DNA of 48,546 bases, taken from assembly GCA_905235625.1 (NCBI GenBank), contig CAJOLX010000005.1:1-48546 (forward strand). Direction: 5' to 3'. Below are positions 24,447-29,634 of the stretch, one piece after another (position 1 is the first letter of the stretch; each line of letters opens with the position of its first letter). The notes under the pieces were generated by a model. That model did not search any database. It saw only the letters and a list, made by a program, of their open reading frames with translations, and had not been told where the DNA came from. Position numbers and translations under genes: made by a program. This DNA comes from an uncultured Clostridia bacterium. GTDB lineage: Bacteria; Bacillota; Clostridia; Oscillospirales; Acutalibacteraceae.

Positions 24447-26294
24447 TCACTGCTCTTTTATCAGAATTGCCGCCGTTACGCCGTCAAGATAAAGGTCTCT
24501 GCCTTCGATTTTTTCACCCGTTAAAGAAACGAACCCTTCGCACGGCAGCGTATAAACTATGGGGTGATTGTTTCTGTTTGCAACGGTCATCACGCTTTCG
24601 CCCTCGCCGCGCCTCTCGTAAGCAACGCAGCCGAGGCAGGAGGAAACGGGCACGAATTCTCCCTCTTTGAAAACGGGGTGCTCTTTTCGGAGTTTTCCGA
24701 GAAATCTATAGTGAGCGAGCAGCTCCCCGTCCTCTTTGCCGTAGGGATAACAGCCTCTGTTGAAGGGGTCAACTCCCCCGCTCTCGCCGACCTCGTCGCC
24801 GTAATATATGCACGGGATGCCCGGCAGGGTAAACTGCATGGAAGAAACGAGCTTCAAAAGCTTTTTGCCTCTTTGGGTTTCCTCCTCGGTCATTTCACCC
24901 GAATATCTGTTTGCGCCGTCGGACGAATAGCCCTCGAGAGTGCCGAGGCGGTTAAGAATTCTGCACGTGTCGTGAGTGCCGACGTGATTCATAAGGCAGT
25001 CCACGGCGCATTTCGGATAATTCTCGCAAATTTCAAGAATTCTGTCGTTAAAGCCCTCGGCTCTTGAGCTCACGGCAAACCAGACGAGCGCGTCGGCAAA
25101 CGGATAATTCATCACGCTGTCAAGCTGCCTGCCCTGAAGGTATCTGCGCCTTTCGCCGTAGCTTATCTTGCAGGAGGCGTCCTCCCACACCTCGCCCAGA
25201 ATGAGCGCGTCGGGGTCGGTTTTTTTGACCGTTTGCCTTAAAGAATCGAGGAATTTATCCGGCAGTTCGTCCGCAACGTCAAGCCTCCAGCCGCGGGCGC
25301 CGAGCTTTTGCCATTTCTCAAGTATTTTAGAAATGTAGGCGATGTAACCGTCGTTATTTTCATCCGTTTCGGGCAAAATGTCAACACCCCACCAGCACGA
25401 ATATTTATCGGGATATTCCGTGAAGCGGTACCAGCCGAAATACTCGGAATCGGGGTCGTTATAAGCTCCGCCGTCGCCGAATGCGCCGTTTTTGTTGAAA
25501 TATTTGCTGTTGGCGCCTGTGTGGCTGAACACTCCGTCAAGGATTACGTCTATGCCTCGCTTTTCGGCTTCTTTGCAAAGGCGCGTGAAATCGCTCTCGT
25601 CGCCGAGCAGCGGGTCGGGCTTTTCATAATCCGCCGTGTCGTATCTGTGGTTGGATTCCGCAAGGAAAATCGGGTTAAGATATATGCACCCTACGCCGAG
25701 GCTCTCAAGGTAATCGAGCTTTGACTCTATGCCTTTGAAATCGCCTTTAAAAAAGTCGTAGCGAGTGATTTTGCCCTCGCCGTTCGGCTCCCACATCGGC
25801 TTTCCGCCCCAGTCGTCTCTGAGAACGCGGGAAGAAAAATCTCCGCTTTTCTCTTCGCCCGAAAAACAAAATCTGTCGGGAAAAATCTGATAAATAACGG
25901 AGCCCTTCAAGCGGTCGGGTGTGGCGAAATCCTTATCGTAAACGGTAAAGAAAAAGTCCTGCCCTTCGGACGAAATCATGCCCACGCTGCCGTAAGCCTT
26001 CGTTATGAAATTCTGCGAATAGCTGTTGAATATGCAAAAGCGGTAAAAATACAGCCCCGCTTCGCCTGCGGTGAAGCTTGCTTTCCACCATTCCTCGCCG
26101 CAGCCTTCGTCCCTTTCCCACTGCATCCTAACGTCTTCATAAAAGCCGTTTTCGGTGTGGATTTTCAAAAAAGCGGAGTTGCAGCCGAAGGATTTGGGAA
26201 GCACTATTCTGAACGTCAGCTCCGTGCCTTCTTCAACGGCGCCGAACGGATATTTATGATAAGTTCGGGATGAAATGTAAGGTATGAAATCCAA
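24447..26294 (-). CDS. GH13 alpha-amylase family hydrolase (neopullulanase/cyclomaltodextrinase-like)
   Basis: The protein has 615 residues. An N-terminal beta domain (about 1-120) is followed by the TIM barrel starting at VIYQIFPDRFC (about 133). GH13 conserved regions are visible: DVILDGVFSHTG (region I), GWRLDVADE with the nucleophile Asp, LILGEVWED with the acid Glu, and LMNHVGTHDT with the third Asp, then GIPCIYYGDEVG. QIFPDRF and the N-domain point to the GH13_20 type that cuts maltodextrins inside the cell. There is no signal peptide. The start is a TTG at 26294 with AAAGG about 10 bases upstream, inside the end of the previous gene (41-base overlap). It is unusual company for Rnf-like and folate genes. 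Confidence 0.9.
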   Translation of the reverse strand: MDFIPYISSRTYHKYPFGAVEEGTELTFRIVLPKSFGCNSAFLKIHTENGFYEDVRMQWERDEGCGEEWWKASFTAGEAGLYFYRFCIFNSYSQNFITKAYGSVGMISSEGQDFFFTVYDKDFATPDRLKGSVIYQIFPDRFCFSGEEKSGDFSSRVLRDDWGGKPMWEPNGEGKITRYDFFKGDFKGIESKLDYLESLGVGCIYLNPIFLAESNHRYDTADYEKPDPLLGDESDFTRLCKEAEKRGIDVILDGVFSHTGANSKYFNKNGAFGDGGAYNDPDSEYFGWYRFTEYPDKYSCWWGVDILPETDENNDGYIAYISKILEKWQKLGARGWRLDVADELPDKFLDSLRQTVKKTDPDALILGEVWEDASCKISYGERRRYLQGRQLDSVMNYPFADALVWFAVSSRAEGFNDRILEICENYPKCAVDCLMNHVGTHDTCRILNRLGTLEGYSSDGANRYSGEMTEEETQRGKKLLKLVSSMQFTLPGIPCIYYGDEVGESGGVDPFNRGCYPYGKEDGELLAHYRFLGKLRKEHPVFKEGEFVPVSSCLGCVAYERRGEGESVMTVANRNNHPIVYTLPCEGFVSLTGEKIEGRDLYLDGVTAAILIKEQ

Positions 26295-26565
26295 GGTTTA
26301 TCTGCCTTTCGCCGAAAAGCATCCCCGAGCCTTTTATGACGGCTTCAAGGGGTGTTTCGGATATTTTCAAAAACACGTCCGTGATGAAATAGCCTATGTA
26401 AATGAGAGCGAGAATGCAAAGAATAATGAGGATTATGCTCGTTATTTTTCGCCTCAGAGCTTTGGCCGCATAGTCGGAATGCGTGCCGAATGACTGAGTG
26501 AATTCCGTGAGGCTCTTTCTCTGAGAGGGTCTTAACGCTTTCTCGCTTTTTTTGCTTTTTTTCAT
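26254..26565 (-). CDS. Small single-pass membrane protein
   Basis: The protein has 103 residues. The ATG at 26565 has AAGGAGG 6-7 bases upstream, a strong site. The N-terminus is very basic (KKSKKSEK, RPSQRK), a hydrophobic segment spans about 43-68 (ITSIILIILCILALIYIGYF), and the C-terminal ~35 residues hold TPLEAVIKGSG. It lies 12 bases after the rnfA-like gene and overlaps the amylase start by 41 bases. It matches no family I know. Its position directly after the Rnf-like trio makes it a candidate extra subunit, which is inference only. Confidence 0.75.
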   Translation of the reverse strand: MKKSKKSEKALRPSQRKSLTEFTQSFGTHSDYAAKALRRKITSIILIILCILALIYIGYFITDVFLKISETPLEAVIKGSGMLFGERQINLGFHTLHFIPNLS

Positions 26566-26577
26566 TCGTCCGCCTCC

Positions 26578-27162
26578 TTAAAAAAGAGTTCTGCCGGTAA
26601 AGCCCATAAATCCGAGCGAAACGAGCGCAACGTAAAGAAACAGAGCGGGCGTTCCTTTAAAGGCGGGCGCAACGTGCCTGTTTTTCGCGAGCACTCTCGC
26701 TCCGCTGCCGATGAGGGCTGCGGCGAGCACAAACGCCGCCCCCGCGCCGAGGCCCGAGCCGATGCTGTTCCACACCGAATAGGTGGCGTTGTAGTTGATG
26801 TAAGGCACGGCAAACACGAGGGTGTTCAGCGCCGAAATGCCGAGATTGTCAAGCAGCTCCCTGTCGTCAGAGAGCACGTGCATAAACATGGCGGCAATCA
26901 GATAAACTCCCGCAAGCACTCCGCCGTAAATCATCGCCCTCACGGCGTAAGAGCCGTTTACCGAAAAGTAGGTTGAAATAAGATTGCAGATAACGCTCGT
27001 AACGGTCGAAAAGCCCGAAATCATCAGCGCAATTCTCAGGAATGCTCCGGGGCGGTTCGCGAGCCTTACCGCTTCGCTCATGCCGAGGCCCGAGCACATA
27101 ACGAGATTTTGGATAAACACCGCGTAGAGAGCGGTTATGAGCATGTCGTAAACTATTTTCAT
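26578..27162 (-). CDS. RnfA/NqrE-like membrane subunit lacking cluster cysteines
   Basis: The protein has 194 residues and six membrane segments. In true RnfA the protein pairs with RnfE and shares a [2Fe-2S] cluster within the membrane. Homology is clear at the end (FKGTPALFLYVALVSLGFMGFTG, matching FRG...SLAFMGFSG) and at the start (FIQNLVMCSGLGMS, matching VNNFVLxxFLGLC). Yet the Cys of GLC-P-F aligns with Ser29 and the Cys of the TNC motif is absent; only Cys23 and Cys59 exist. AAGGAGG precedes the ATG, and the start overlaps the rnfE-like stop by 4 bases. Iron-sulfur binding as in Rnf is therefore doubtful. Confidence 0.85.
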   Translation of the reverse strand: MKIVYDMLITALYAVFIQNLVMCSGLGMSEAVRLANRPGAFLRIALMISGFSTVTSVICNLISTYFSVNGSYAVRAMIYGGVLAGVYLIAAMFMHVLSDDRELLDNLGISALNTLVFAVPYINYNATYSVWNSIGSGLGAGAAFVLAAALIGSGARVLAKNRHVAPAFKGTPALFLYVALVSLGFMGFTGRTLF

Positions 27163-27956
27163 TTGCCGCTCTCCTCCTTTTCTCCGTCATTGCCGGTAAA
27201 GGACTCTATGAGCTCGTTTACGGAAGAAAGCAGATAGTCGTATTCATCGTCGCGTTCAAAGCCGAAATCCATGTCTATCTGCTCGGGGTCAAGCACGTTT
27301 TCAACCTCAAGCTCAATTTCTTCGGGCTGATCGCTCGCGGGCTTTTTCTCGGGCTTCTTTTCGCCCGAATAAACGGTCTGAAGCAAAGCGGCGGCAAAGC
27401 CCAATATCACAAGGCAGCCTACGGGCATTGCCATGCCTTCAAGCGTAACTTTAAAAGGCAGAGAACGGCCGAGTATTGAGCCGCTGCCGAGTATTTCGCG
27501 CACTGCGCCGCAGATGAGCATGACCGCTCCGATGCCTATGCCTGAGGCTATGGCGTCATAAACCGCGGTGCGCACGTCGTTTTTAACGGCAAAGGTCTCG
27601 CAGTGCACCGCCGTTGCGGAATTAACGGCTATCAGCGGCAGAAACATCCTCATGCCGAAAGGCAAATCTATGAGAGTTTTGAATTCAATGAACCAGAGCG
27701 CGGGGCAAATGAGCAAAAGCCCGATGATGAGATAAATGCCCACGCGAAGAAATCTCGCCGCCTTTTTAAGCATGAGGCTTGCGATAAACGAGGTGACTAT
27801 CATATCGGCAAGCAGCGCTATGGACGCGAAGAAAGCGTCTCTTAAATTCTGAGTTGCCGCCACAACGGGAAACAGGCCGACGCATTGAATGAGCACGGGG
27901 TTAAACTTGAAGGTGCCGGCGCGAATCATGCTGCCGAGAGAATATTTTTTATCCAT
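27159..27956 (-). CDS. RnfE/NqrD-like membrane subunit with acidic C-terminal extension
   Basis: The protein has 265 residues. Residues 1-198 follow RnfE: FNPVLIQCVGLFPVVAAT, FLPLIAVNSATAVHCETFA, AVREILGSGS. The two cluster cysteines are replaced: GLCP is GLFP (Phe29) and TNC is VNS (Ser113). A cytoplasmic, strongly acidic tail of about 65 residues (about 199-265, many Glu/Asp) has no counterpart in usual RnfE and may be a docking region. GGAGG precedes the ATG, which overlaps the rnfD-like stop by 8 bases. Loss of the same ligands in both RnfE and RnfA suggests adaptation rather than chance. Confidence 0.85.
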   Translation of the reverse strand: MDKKYSLGSMIRAGTFKFNPVLIQCVGLFPVVAATQNLRDAFFASIALLADMIVTSFIASLMLKKAARFLRVGIYLIIGLLLICPALWFIEFKTLIDLPFGMRMFLPLIAVNSATAVHCETFAVKNDVRTAVYDAIASGIGIGAVMLICGAVREILGSGSILGRSLPFKVTLEGMAMPVGCLVILGFAAALLQTVYSGEKKPEKKPASDQPEEIELEVENVLDPEQIDMDFGFERDDEYDYLLSSVNELIESFTGNDGEKEESGK

Positions 27957-28911
27957 TTACCGCAGCCTCCTTCACCTTTTTGTGAGAGGATACGATTATT
28001 CGCATTCTGTCGGTCAGCATATCGAGCAGAGGGCTGAACGCGTTTGCGATAAGCACGGCGAAGCAAACGGGCTCCTCAAAGGCGGCAAGGCGCCTCATAA
28101 CCATGCAAACGGCTCCGGTGAACACGCCGTAAACCACTTTGTTTGCCGTGTGAACGGGCATCGTGGCGGGGTTTGTGAGCATAAATACCGCGGCAAAAAG
28201 CAGCGAGCCGGAGCAAAGCTCCATAACGGCGCACGAAATAACGGAGCCGTCGGATCTCGGAAACACGAGAGAAATCAGCAGGCACGAAAGCACGAATCCC
28301 GCGCTCGGCAAAAGTGACGAACGCCTGCGGATAAACAGAAAAACGAAACAGCCGAGCAGCGCTATAATGCAGGTCGTGCCCATGGGGCCGAGAATGTTGC
28401 CCGTGAGCATATCAATTAAGTTTGAAGCGGAAAGCTTAACGGTGTTGCCCGCCGCAAGAGAAGAAGTGAGGGGCATCGTTTTCATAAAAGCTCTGCCGCC
28501 CGAGTAAGAAAAGACTTCGTTTTTAAAGCAAACGGCTGCGAAAGCAAAGCCTGCGGCGGAGGGCACAAACGGCGCTCTCATACCGCCGCCGAACGGAATT
28601 TTCGCCACTAAAATCGCGAAAGAGCTTGCGACGATGCCCACGTAAACAGGCGCCGTCGCCGGCAGCATAAGCGCAATGATAATGCCCGCGCAAATACCGC
28701 TCAGGTCAGCCGCATAATATTGCTTGTTGATTATTATGCTCGCAACAAAGTCGCACGCGAACGCCGTAACAACGCACACGGCAAGAGTGCGCACGGCGTC
28801 CGTTCCGTAATACCAAACGGAAAGAACGCACAGCGCCGCAAGCATTATCAGATAATCGCCGAACACCCTTGTGGACTTGGCTGTTCGGTCGCTTCTTGTT
28901 TCAGCCAACAA
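27949..28911 (-). CDS. RnfD/NqrB-like membrane subunit
   Basis: The protein has 320 residues with about 8-9 membrane segments. Family likeness: the IIINKQYYAADLSGICAGIIIALMLPATAPVY block, FGGGMRAPFVPSAAGFAFA, LTGNILGPMGTTCIIALLGCFVFL, and FTGAVCMVMRR followed by EEPVCFAVLIANAFSPLLD. RnfD normally carries FMN on a Thr in a (S/T)xAT motif; the matching stretch here (about 147-158, MPLTSSLAAGNT) has no clear S-A-T, so flavinylation is doubtful. The start is TTG (28911, or 28908, which has better spacing from GAGGTG) and overlaps the end of rpe by 11 bases. No rnfC, rnfG or rnfB is next to it. Confidence 0.85.
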   Translation of the reverse strand: MLAETRSDRTAKSTRVFGDYLIMLAALCVLSVWYYGTDAVRTLAVCVVTAFACDFVASIIINKQYYAADLSGICAGIIIALMLPATAPVYVGIVASSFAILVAKIPFGGGMRAPFVPSAAGFAFAAVCFKNEVFSYSGGRAFMKTMPLTSSLAAGNTVKLSASNLIDMLTGNILGPMGTTCIIALLGCFVFLFIRRRSSLLPSAGFVLSCLLISLVFPRSDGSVISCAVMELCSGSLLFAAVFMLTNPATMPVHTANKVVYGVFTGAVCMVMRRLAAFEEPVCFAVLIANAFSPLLDMLTDRMRIIVSSHKKVKEAAVNG

Positions 28912-29569
28912 AATTCACCTCGGCGTTACTTTTGAGCAGAGAAATGACCCCGGCAGGGTCGGGAGAGCGGAAAACGGCGCTGCCCGCGACAAGCACGTTG
29001 GCTCCTGCGGCAGCCGCTTCCTTCGCGGTGTCGGCGTTTATGCCGCCGTCCACCTGAATGTCGAGCTCGATGCCGCGTTTTTTCGCTTCCTGCCTTATTT
29101 CGGCAACCTTGGGCATGGTGTCGCGCATAAACGACTGCCCGCCGAAACCGGGCTCAACGGTCATAACGAGTATCATATCCGCCTTGTCAAGATAAGGCAA
29201 AACTTCCGATGCGGTAGTGGCGGGCTTTATCGCAACGCCCGCTTTGCGCCCGAAGGAATGTATCTCGTCTATCGTTTCGCCGATATCCGAATCGCTCTCA
29301 GCGTGAAAAGTGATAAGGTCGGCGCCCGCTTTAACGAAGTCTTCCACGTATTTCAGTGGGTCCGAAATCATGAGATGAACGTCAAAAAGCAACGAGGTGA
29401 GCCCTCTTATCGATGAAATAACGGGAGCGCCGAAGCTGATATTCGGCACAAATCTGCCGTCCATAACGTCAAGATGAAGCATATCGGCTCCGCTTTTTTC
29501 CATTTTTACGCTTTCTTCCCCGAGGCGAGAAAAATCGCTCGCAAGAACAGACGGTGATATTTTAATCAA
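28901..29569 (-). CDS. rpe: Ribulose-phosphate 3-epimerase
   Basis: It interconverts ribulose-5-phosphate and xylulose-5-phosphate in the pentose phosphate pathway. The protein has 222 residues. A TTG start at 29569 (IKISPSVLASDF) is chosen from GGAGG 8 bases upstream and from the family N-terminus. Visible: SPSVLASDF, HLDVMDGRFVPN-I-SFG, FDVHLMISDP, the MTVEPGFGGQSF motif, QVDGGIN and VAGSAVF. The metal-binding His/Asp residues are complete. It is the first gene of a 13-gene unit and overlaps the next frame. Confidence 0.95.
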   Translation of the reverse strand: MIKISPSVLASDFSRLGEESVKMEKSGADMLHLDVMDGRFVPNISFGAPVISSIRGLTSLLFDVHLMISDPLKYVEDFVKAGADLITFHAESDSDIGETIDEIHSFGRKAGVAIKPATTASEVLPYLDKADMILVMTVEPGFGGQSFMRDTMPKVAEIRQEAKKRGIELDIQVDGGINADTAKEAAAAGANVLVAGSAVFRSPDPAGVISLLKSNAEVNFVG

Positions 29570-29605
29570 GACTCGCACCTCCGCGGTAAACAATTACTCA
29601 AAGTA

Positions 29606-29634
29606 ATTATATCATAGCGGTGTTTTAAGGTCAA
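29606..29634 (-). promoter_or_regulatory. Promoter of the rpe-to-folK operon
   Basis: On the minus strand: -35 TTGACC (29629-29634), a 17-bp spacer, and -10 TATAAT (29606-29611). It lies about 37 bases before the TTG start of rpe. All 13 following genes overlap or are separated by no more than about 28 bases. Confidence 0.85.

Follow-up and report, generated by a model that had tools for sequence, protein, structure and literature searches.

A conserved Rnf-like membrane trio without redox cofactor sites in uncultured Clostridia, and what it may do

What becomes of the membrane core of an Rnf complex when the sites that carry its electrons are gone? The question is raised by a 48,546-nucleotide stretch of DNA from an uncultured Clostridia bacterium of the family Acutalibacteraceae (contig CAJOLX010000005.1 of assembly GCA_905235625.1), the whole of which is referred to here as the window. 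Genes for RnfD-, RnfE- and RnfA-like membrane proteins (D', E' and A') lie there in that order, overlapping and all on the minus strand (26578–28911). An original prediction made from the sequence had given these coordinates, strand and order correctly, and had proposed a repurposed, non-redox transporter or channel derived from Rnf. We conclude that the trio is very probably a conserved, redox-stripped Rnf core. Its non-redox nature is well supported by sequence comparison, while a role in transport is something we infer.

Cofactor sites and ion-path residues

All three proteins belong to the Rnf-Nqr superfamily, scoring well above the curated Pfam cut-offs (PF02508, cut-off 23.8 bits: 70.4 for A' and 78.3 for E'; PF03116, cut-off 27.7 bits: 195.4 for D'), and the closest solved proteins were RnfD, RnfA and NqrD/RnfE chains (7zc6 and other Rnf/NQR PDB entries). 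The NCBIfam rnfA, rnfD and rnfE models matched the trio far below their cut-offs (46 bits for a cut-off of 229, 123 for 207 and 71 for 213, respectively). Homologues of RnfB, RnfC and RnfG were not found at E 1e-3 among the 409 window frames of at least 50 amino acids (aa), bearing out the predicted absence of these subunits around the trio.

Positions of cofactor ligands were taken from the Clostridium tetanomorphum and Acetobacterium woodii structures (PMC9588780, PMC11889175; each paper cited here and below stands for the part of its text that was available). In hhalign profile-profile alignments with canonical relatives, ungapped through the sites, A' Ser29 stands opposite Cys25 and Thr114 opposite Cys113 of RnfA, and E' Phe29 and Ser113 stand opposite the two RnfE cluster cysteines; Ser29 and the lost TNC motif in A', and Phe29 and Ser113 in E', had been correctly predicted. 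None of the four [2Fe-2S] cluster cysteines of RnfA/RnfE is present in the window trio. Conservation was then counted over 27 rows, the window included, which form one clade of loci with D', E' and A' only (the DEA clade; SH-like approximate likelihood ratio test, SH-aLRT, 100). A-Cys25, A-Cys113 and E-Cys108 were each found in 0/27 of these rows versus 19/19 canonical rows. The same counts were obtained for D-Thr153, to which flavin mononucleotide (FMN) is covalently bound, and for each of two residues on the FMN side, Arg130 and Glu185 (all three numbered as in C. tetanomorphum). All three are replaced in the window D' and the FMN-attachment motif is lost; the prediction had called this motif unclear. 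At the riboflavin/Na+ site of the same protein Asn124 is replaced by Val and Asp248 by Asn.

Pairwise alignments with 7zc6_A and 9eri_A slid A' Cys23 onto Cys25, and that with 8ahx_A agreed with the profiles. The alternative that the A' cysteines had merely shifted was rejected for the window's clade: the profile alignment is ungapped there, no conserved set of cysteines lies nearby in A', and because Cys23 occurs in few relatives only, even this register would leave A' without a conserved ligand there.

Purifying selection acts on the trio, with Nei-Gojobori ratios of nonsynonymous to synonymous change (dN/dS) against two relatives of 0.09–0.21 for D', E' and A' and 0.12–0.13 for the neighbouring rpe gene (rough values, dS being mostly above 1). 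A cysteine-less clade exists and is conserved and selected for; together with the loss of RnfB and RnfG and then of RnfC, this strongly supports the 'repurposed, non-redox, Rnf-derived' part of the prediction.

Several residues of one proposed ion path were kept. For A. woodii, Na+ is proposed to cross RnfA/E near the cluster with the involvement of RnfE R67-E115, RnfA E88, RnfE N107 and RnfA N112; reduction of the cluster raises Na+ affinity in that model, and removal of the [2Fe-2S] cysteines abolished both the activity of the variants and growth of the strains (PMC11889175). Across the DEA clade RnfE R67 was retained in 27/27 rows, E115 and N107 in 25/27 each, and RnfA N112 in 26/27 (the sole miss being a truncated row), with gate residues L103 and V106 at 22/27 each. 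When the columns (nearly) fixed in canonical rows were ranked by retention, R67 came first and E115 and N107 fifth out of 50 in E, and N112 third out of 49 in A, where mean retention of canonical-invariant columns was 0.47 for D and E and 0.24 for A. The window equivalents (E' Arg71, Glu120 and Asn112 for R67, E115 and N107, respectively, and A' Asn113 for N112) are all kept. Residues contacting RnfB were lost (K32 3/27, R154 0/27). In addition, a Glu directly follows the position of the lost RnfA Cys25 in 27/27 rows (window A' Glu30), and an Arg (26 rows) or Lys (one row) lies three residues beyond it (window Arg33).

Stripped relatives and their origins

An RnfD-like match was present in 125 of 150 genomes of the family, often twice. 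Fifty-eight regions fetched around such matches, together with seven named loci (from Ruminococcaceae, Clostridiaceae or Clostridia metagenome-assembled genomes), were sorted by the presence or absence of an RnfG or RnfB homologue. The absence of these subunits from stripped loci is therefore a sorting rule, of which the lost cofactor sites are independent. Sorting gave six canonical loci, 55 stripped loci and four odd ones that were left out. Among the stripped loci, 26 carry an RnfC-like protein (C') ahead of the trio (CDEA loci), 27 carry the trio alone (DEA loci, 28 with the window) and two are cut by contig ends. Class counts leave out the odd loci (L084, L088, L098 and L099) and L120 and L125, with L067 and L072, at contig edges, counted apart; L097 is without A', and A' of L037 and L040 is cut by contig ends. 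As to the odd loci, L084:7974-8924 and L099:9383-13128 are RnfD-like without recognised E or A, the latter beside an RnfC-like frame of ~900 aa; no A was found at L098, and L088 keeps the RnfD threonine motif with divergent E and A.

Such loci usually run from rpe through a divergent mecA-like gene, C', D', E' and A' to a PF13200-type membrane protein. The rpe gene was present at 49/55 related loci. In C', all eight cysteines of two [4Fe-4S] clusters were retained in 26/26 CDEA loci, and the GxGGAGFP motif for FMN/NAD was lost in 26/26. A secreted protein, CAP/SCP-like by eye, lies between D' and E' at L046:10112-10891 and L048:5400-6188.

All DEA rows fall into the window's clade except L081, which has no C' and lies outside it. 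On the best tree (81 rows) the absence of C' takes three changes to explain, and the starred branches alone require two. In family f22 (families are numbered here), C' was absent from 8/10 first-fetched and 5/6 later loci. A C' profile recovered one RnfC-like protein per genome in 20/20 DEA-clade genomes, adjoining the canonical genes, and one in each of 8/8 f22 genomes, away from the stripped locus; it found none in G077, the genome of L081, and recovered C' from G127, G103 and G279 as positive controls. On the best tree, then, C' was lost while D', E' and A' stayed, and it has not moved to another place in the genomes searched.

Matches to an A' profile at E 1e-40 or better came from 47 of the order's 297 genomes (17 in f1, 30 in f22, none in other families), and over 243 genomes of the class no score fell in the gap between 169 and 123 bits. 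Genomes of family f6 were not listed by this search, which would likewise miss independently stripped sets elsewhere.

Four stripped loci were nevertheless identified in f6 (L117 and L130–L132). They hold C-D-E-A only, lack the FMN threonine, keep the eight Fe-S cysteines of C and have no Cys in the four cluster-ligand columns; a Cys one place before a ligand position in E (column N107) makes one shifted cluster cysteine possible there, with the other three ligands absent. A canonical C-D-G-E-A-B operon occupies the same place between the same flanking genes in L135, a locus from another species of the same genus. The D tree joins the f6 stripped loci to L135 (support 96/89) and rejects a single clade with the f1/f22 loci (approximately unbiased (AU) test, p = 0.039). 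The concatenation of D, E and A contradicts it with one clade of all stripped loci (SH-aLRT 99), and the C tree is undecided on this point (AU p = 0.149). Since canonical L135 and stripped L130 and L132 of one genus have both flanks in common, two origins are favoured, and stripping probably happened twice. Canonical operons of family f4 (L119, L136 and L137) sit between rpe and a PF13200-type gene, for which reason a complete operon in this position was probably the source of the stripped sets.

A second, complete rnf set elsewhere in the genome had also been considered in the original prediction. One of complete type does exist, in the window's genome as in all 20 DEA-clade genomes checked, albeit with rnfB in two pieces in the window's assembly. 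Contig C8 carries apbE and rnfC-D-G-E-A with canonical motifs, and its rnfB part (L042:7754-8203) runs into a mutY-like open reading frame (ORF) near the contig end; the second part lies on contig C10:38681-39073, apparently also at a contig end. The split most likely reflects an assembly break with a chimeric contig end; rnfB is intact in two genomes of the same genus. The sole RnfC match in the window's genome (PF13375 and C' profile) belongs to the canonical operon.

Some relatives of the trio occur without canonical Rnf. G103, G051, G090 and G077 (99, 97, 98 and 93% complete, respectively) each contain exactly two PF02508 proteins, which are the stripped A' and E', and one RnfD-like match, and nothing in them matches the first half of the RnfB model; an RnfB sum above the cut-off in G077 stems from ferredoxin-type stretches. 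The first three have CDEA loci, and G077 has D'E'A' alone, outside the window's clade. Independence from canonical Rnf is thus shown for relatives and not for the window's clade itself. An accessory role to canonical Rnf was set aside for the CDEA loci and L081, as genomes without canonical Rnf exist among them.

Candidate functions

The reading we tentatively favour is that the trio is a redox-independent core in which a cation (Na+ or H+) moves through the A'-E' pair. On this view the membrane core of an Rnf pump lost its route for electrons and was retained for work that needs no redox step, and the inverted A'/E' dimer would still carry the ion by alternating access. In the window's clade a fixed carboxylate, A' Glu30, would stand in for the negative charge of the reduced cluster; ion binding would then need no electron, and transport would be driven by the ion gradient itself, as in a carrier or exchanger. 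The long tail of E' in this clade may replace RnfC/RnfB as a cytoplasmic docking or gating part. The 'transporter or channel' of the original prediction holds in so far as the kept Na+-path residues speak for transport, and it is from these residues that we infer it. More doubtful is the full history in which a redox Na+ pump was turned in place, probably twice, into a cofactor-free ion transporter, with the A' Glu replacing the cluster charge in the window's clade.

Several observations weigh against cation movement through A'-E'. The coupling of electrons to ions in RNF/NQR is debated, and Na+ has been routed through RnfD (PMC9588780, PMC12174285) as opposed to RnfA/E (PMC12174285; PMC11889175); Asp248, one proposed Na+ site, is lost from the window D'. 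RnfA E88 of the ion-pair network and T110 were found in 0/27 rows of the DEA clade, T111 is lost as well, and folding could be the reason why R67, E115 and N112 persist. The E-Cys25 column, Cys in 19/19 canonical rows, is still Cys in 23/27 DEA-clade rows (Phe in the window). DEA rows also conserve two new cysteines that lie apart from the canonical cluster sites (A' Cys59 in 24/28, E' Cys119 in 25/28), and with these cysteines a metal site of another kind may be possible. Each of the 20 DEA-clade genomes checked, that of the window among them, has four PF02508 proteins, of which two are canonical, as would be expected of a partner of canonical Rnf. Finally, the stripped grades differ among themselves. 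The f6 loci keep R67, E115, E88 and N112 (4/4 each) and have lost N107 (0/4), while CDEA loci retain E115 in only 2/27 and have an Arg at the position after Cys25 in 12/26. With E115 nearly gone in CDEA, N107 lost in f6 and the Glu specific to DEA, one mechanism cannot cover all stripped grades, and that of the CDEA loci may differ.

We give little credence to a signalling or scaffolding platform, in which the E' tail would anchor cytoplasmic partners and work with the PF13200 protein without any transport. The tail, presumably on the cytoplasmic side by homology, closes in the window E' with a short segment of helical appearance by eye, YDYLLSSVNELIESF. Tails of 50–473 aa occur in 27/27 DEA-clade rows, are net negative in 21/27 and often have a similar short end (by eye), and in f6 E a long low-complexity stretch precedes the membrane part instead. 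A scaffold would also suit the PF13200-type protein or anchor remnant that follows A' in many loci; in the window this is a 103-aa ORF with weak resemblance to the PF13200 (DUF4015) anchor (hmmsearch E 6.6e-4, profile positions 35–79). It would equally suit the mecA-like adaptor gene, found on the opposite strand between rpe and C'/D' at 33/55 loci (one representative scanned: PF05389) and without a homologue among the 409 window frames. However, tails of CDEA and f22 loci are mostly short (medians 5 aa, from 26 rows of which two exceed 40 aa, and 10 aa, respectively), 26 non-canonical loci, some of them cut by contig ends, gave no PF13200-type match, and a scaffold would not need R67, E115 and N112 to be kept in the membrane pair. 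Canonical RnfE frames of f4 are long too (462–527 aa stop to stop at L119, L136 and L137), and E of L119 has a long low-complexity C-terminal extension; long RnfE tails thus arise in complete Rnf as well.

A residual or new redox role is likewise improbable for the trio. Riboflavin could be held non-covalently in D' and act with the C' clusters in CDEA loci, or the new cysteines could form a metal site in DEA loci. Non-covalent flavin has been proposed for Nqr/Rnf-like RnfD proteins without the flavinylation threonine (PMC10979944), the eight Fe-S cysteines of C' are complete at every CDEA locus, and CDEA D' keeps N124 in 18/27 and D248 in 22/27. The CDEA loci may accordingly retain some redox or sensing step, given the C' clusters and these partly kept riboflavin residues. 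In the window's clade, however, C' is gone, N124 stands at 0/27, A' has no conserved cysteine at a cluster site, and E' has a single one, which the window itself lacks.

There is a small chance that the activity resides in D', as a channel for a solute or of an ammonium-like type, with A' and E' as structural partners. In its fold RnfD is similar to urea and ammonium transporters (PMC9588780), and the share of canonical-invariant columns kept is 47% in D' and E' of the DEA clade against 24% in A' (94, 56 and 42% in D, E and A of f6, respectively). No sequence sign of a specific solute was seen, though, and polar residues of the D' cavity drift in the DEA clade (N124 0/27, D248 17/27), whereas N112 and R67 are among the best kept.

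Quite unlikely, in our view, is a regulatory or alternative core that borrows RnfB, RnfC and RnfG from the canonical Rnf of the same cell. The window's genome has a canonical rnf, and 20/20 DEA-clade genomes combine two canonical PF02508 proteins with one RnfC beside the canonical operon, because of which co-purification with canonical Rnf is possible in this clade. On the other hand, RnfB contacts are lost from the trio, and three genomes with CDEA loci and G077 have neither canonical RnfA/E nor a first-half RnfB match. That the trio is a decaying remnant of a duplicated rnf operon, as the loss of several subunits might suggest, is hardly credible in view of its open frames, low dN/dS, synteny conserved in dozens of genera and new clade-specific conserved residues.

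Locus features and relation to known systems

Overlaps of 11 (rpe/D'), 8 (D'/E') and 4 bases (E'/A'), a 12-base gap between A' and the 103-aa ORF, and a promoter-like site ahead of rpe suggest that rpe, the trio and this ORF form one operon (Table 1). Promoter-like sites, identified by consensus match only, numbered seven in the region versus 4.5 (standard deviation 2.1) in shuffles. A riboswitch was not found at the gathering threshold in the window and five related loci, the three matches being tRNAs.

Table 1 Features of the stripped locus in the window
Feature	Position	Strand	Evidence
D', RnfD-like membrane protein, 320 aa	27949..28911	-	PF03116 1.8e-57; 7zc6_D 1.9e-65 by profile
E', RnfE-like membrane protein, 265 aa	27159..27956	-	PF02508 9.7e-22; hhalign register; residue tables
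A', RnfA-like membrane protein, 194 aa	26578..27162	-	PF02508 2.5e-19; hhalign register; residue tables
A' Ser29 to Arg33 codons: lost cluster-cysteine site and new Glu30/Arg33 charged pair	27064..27078	-	
E' acidic C-terminal tail, residues 206–265, net charge -18	27162..27341	-	
rpe, ribulose-phosphate 3-epimerase, conserved upstream neighbour	28901..29593	-	TIGR01163 1.3e-77
103-aa single-pass membrane ORF (one transmembrane segment)	26254..26565	-	Weak resemblance to PF13200 anchor
Promoter-like site ahead of rpe and the trio	29606..29634	-	11/12 consensus matches, TG before -10

Among known systems the trio is homologous to RNF (RnfABCDGE; C. tetanomorphum 7ZC6 and A. woodii). It has the relative D-E-A order of the genome's own canonical operon and keeps the invariant Asn that adjoins the second cluster Cys of RnfA as well as RnfE R67/E115; however, with B, C, G, the cluster cysteines and the FMN threonine all missing, no redox path can be drawn. 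Na+-NQR, an Rnf paralogue too, offers a precedent in NqrA, an RnfC stripped of all redox cofactors (PMC4014512, PMC12174285), but it keeps the [2Fe-2S] cluster in NqrD/E and flavins in NqrB/C, whereas here the membrane core itself is stripped. The trio is not Na+-NQR by its matches: nqrB, nqrD and nqrE models scored far below cut-off and no NqrC (RnfG) homologue was found in the window, NqrF and NqrA not having been searched for. Nqr/Rnf-like two-subunit systems (Meheust et al. 2021, PMC8238504; PMC10979944) share with D' an RnfD-like protein without the flavinylation threonine. They pair an FMN-bind protein with an RnfD-like one that carries an NAD-binding domain, while the trio locus retains A' and E' and has no RnfG homologue; D' is not fused to PF00175 (320 aa, PF03116 only) and no FMN-bind (RnfG) homologue was found in the window. 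Urea and ammonium transporters share their topology with RnfD (PMC9588780) and have no counterpart of A' or E'. No account of a cofactor-less RnfD/E/A set was present among the matches listed in the open-access literature.

The stripped sets are found across a large group of bacteria from gut and rumen, where an annotation of 'RnfA/D/E' need not mean energy conservation, a warning for metabolic models. A natural core without an electron path, together with graded intermediates (complete operon, C'D'E'A' and D'E'A'), lets the ion-moving part be tested, as well as whether the redox step can be uncoupled. If the full history of a redox pump turned cofactor-free transporter is true, the trio would represent a new family of transporters that originated in a respiratory complex, and would be natural evidence that ions cross Rnf through RnfA/E.

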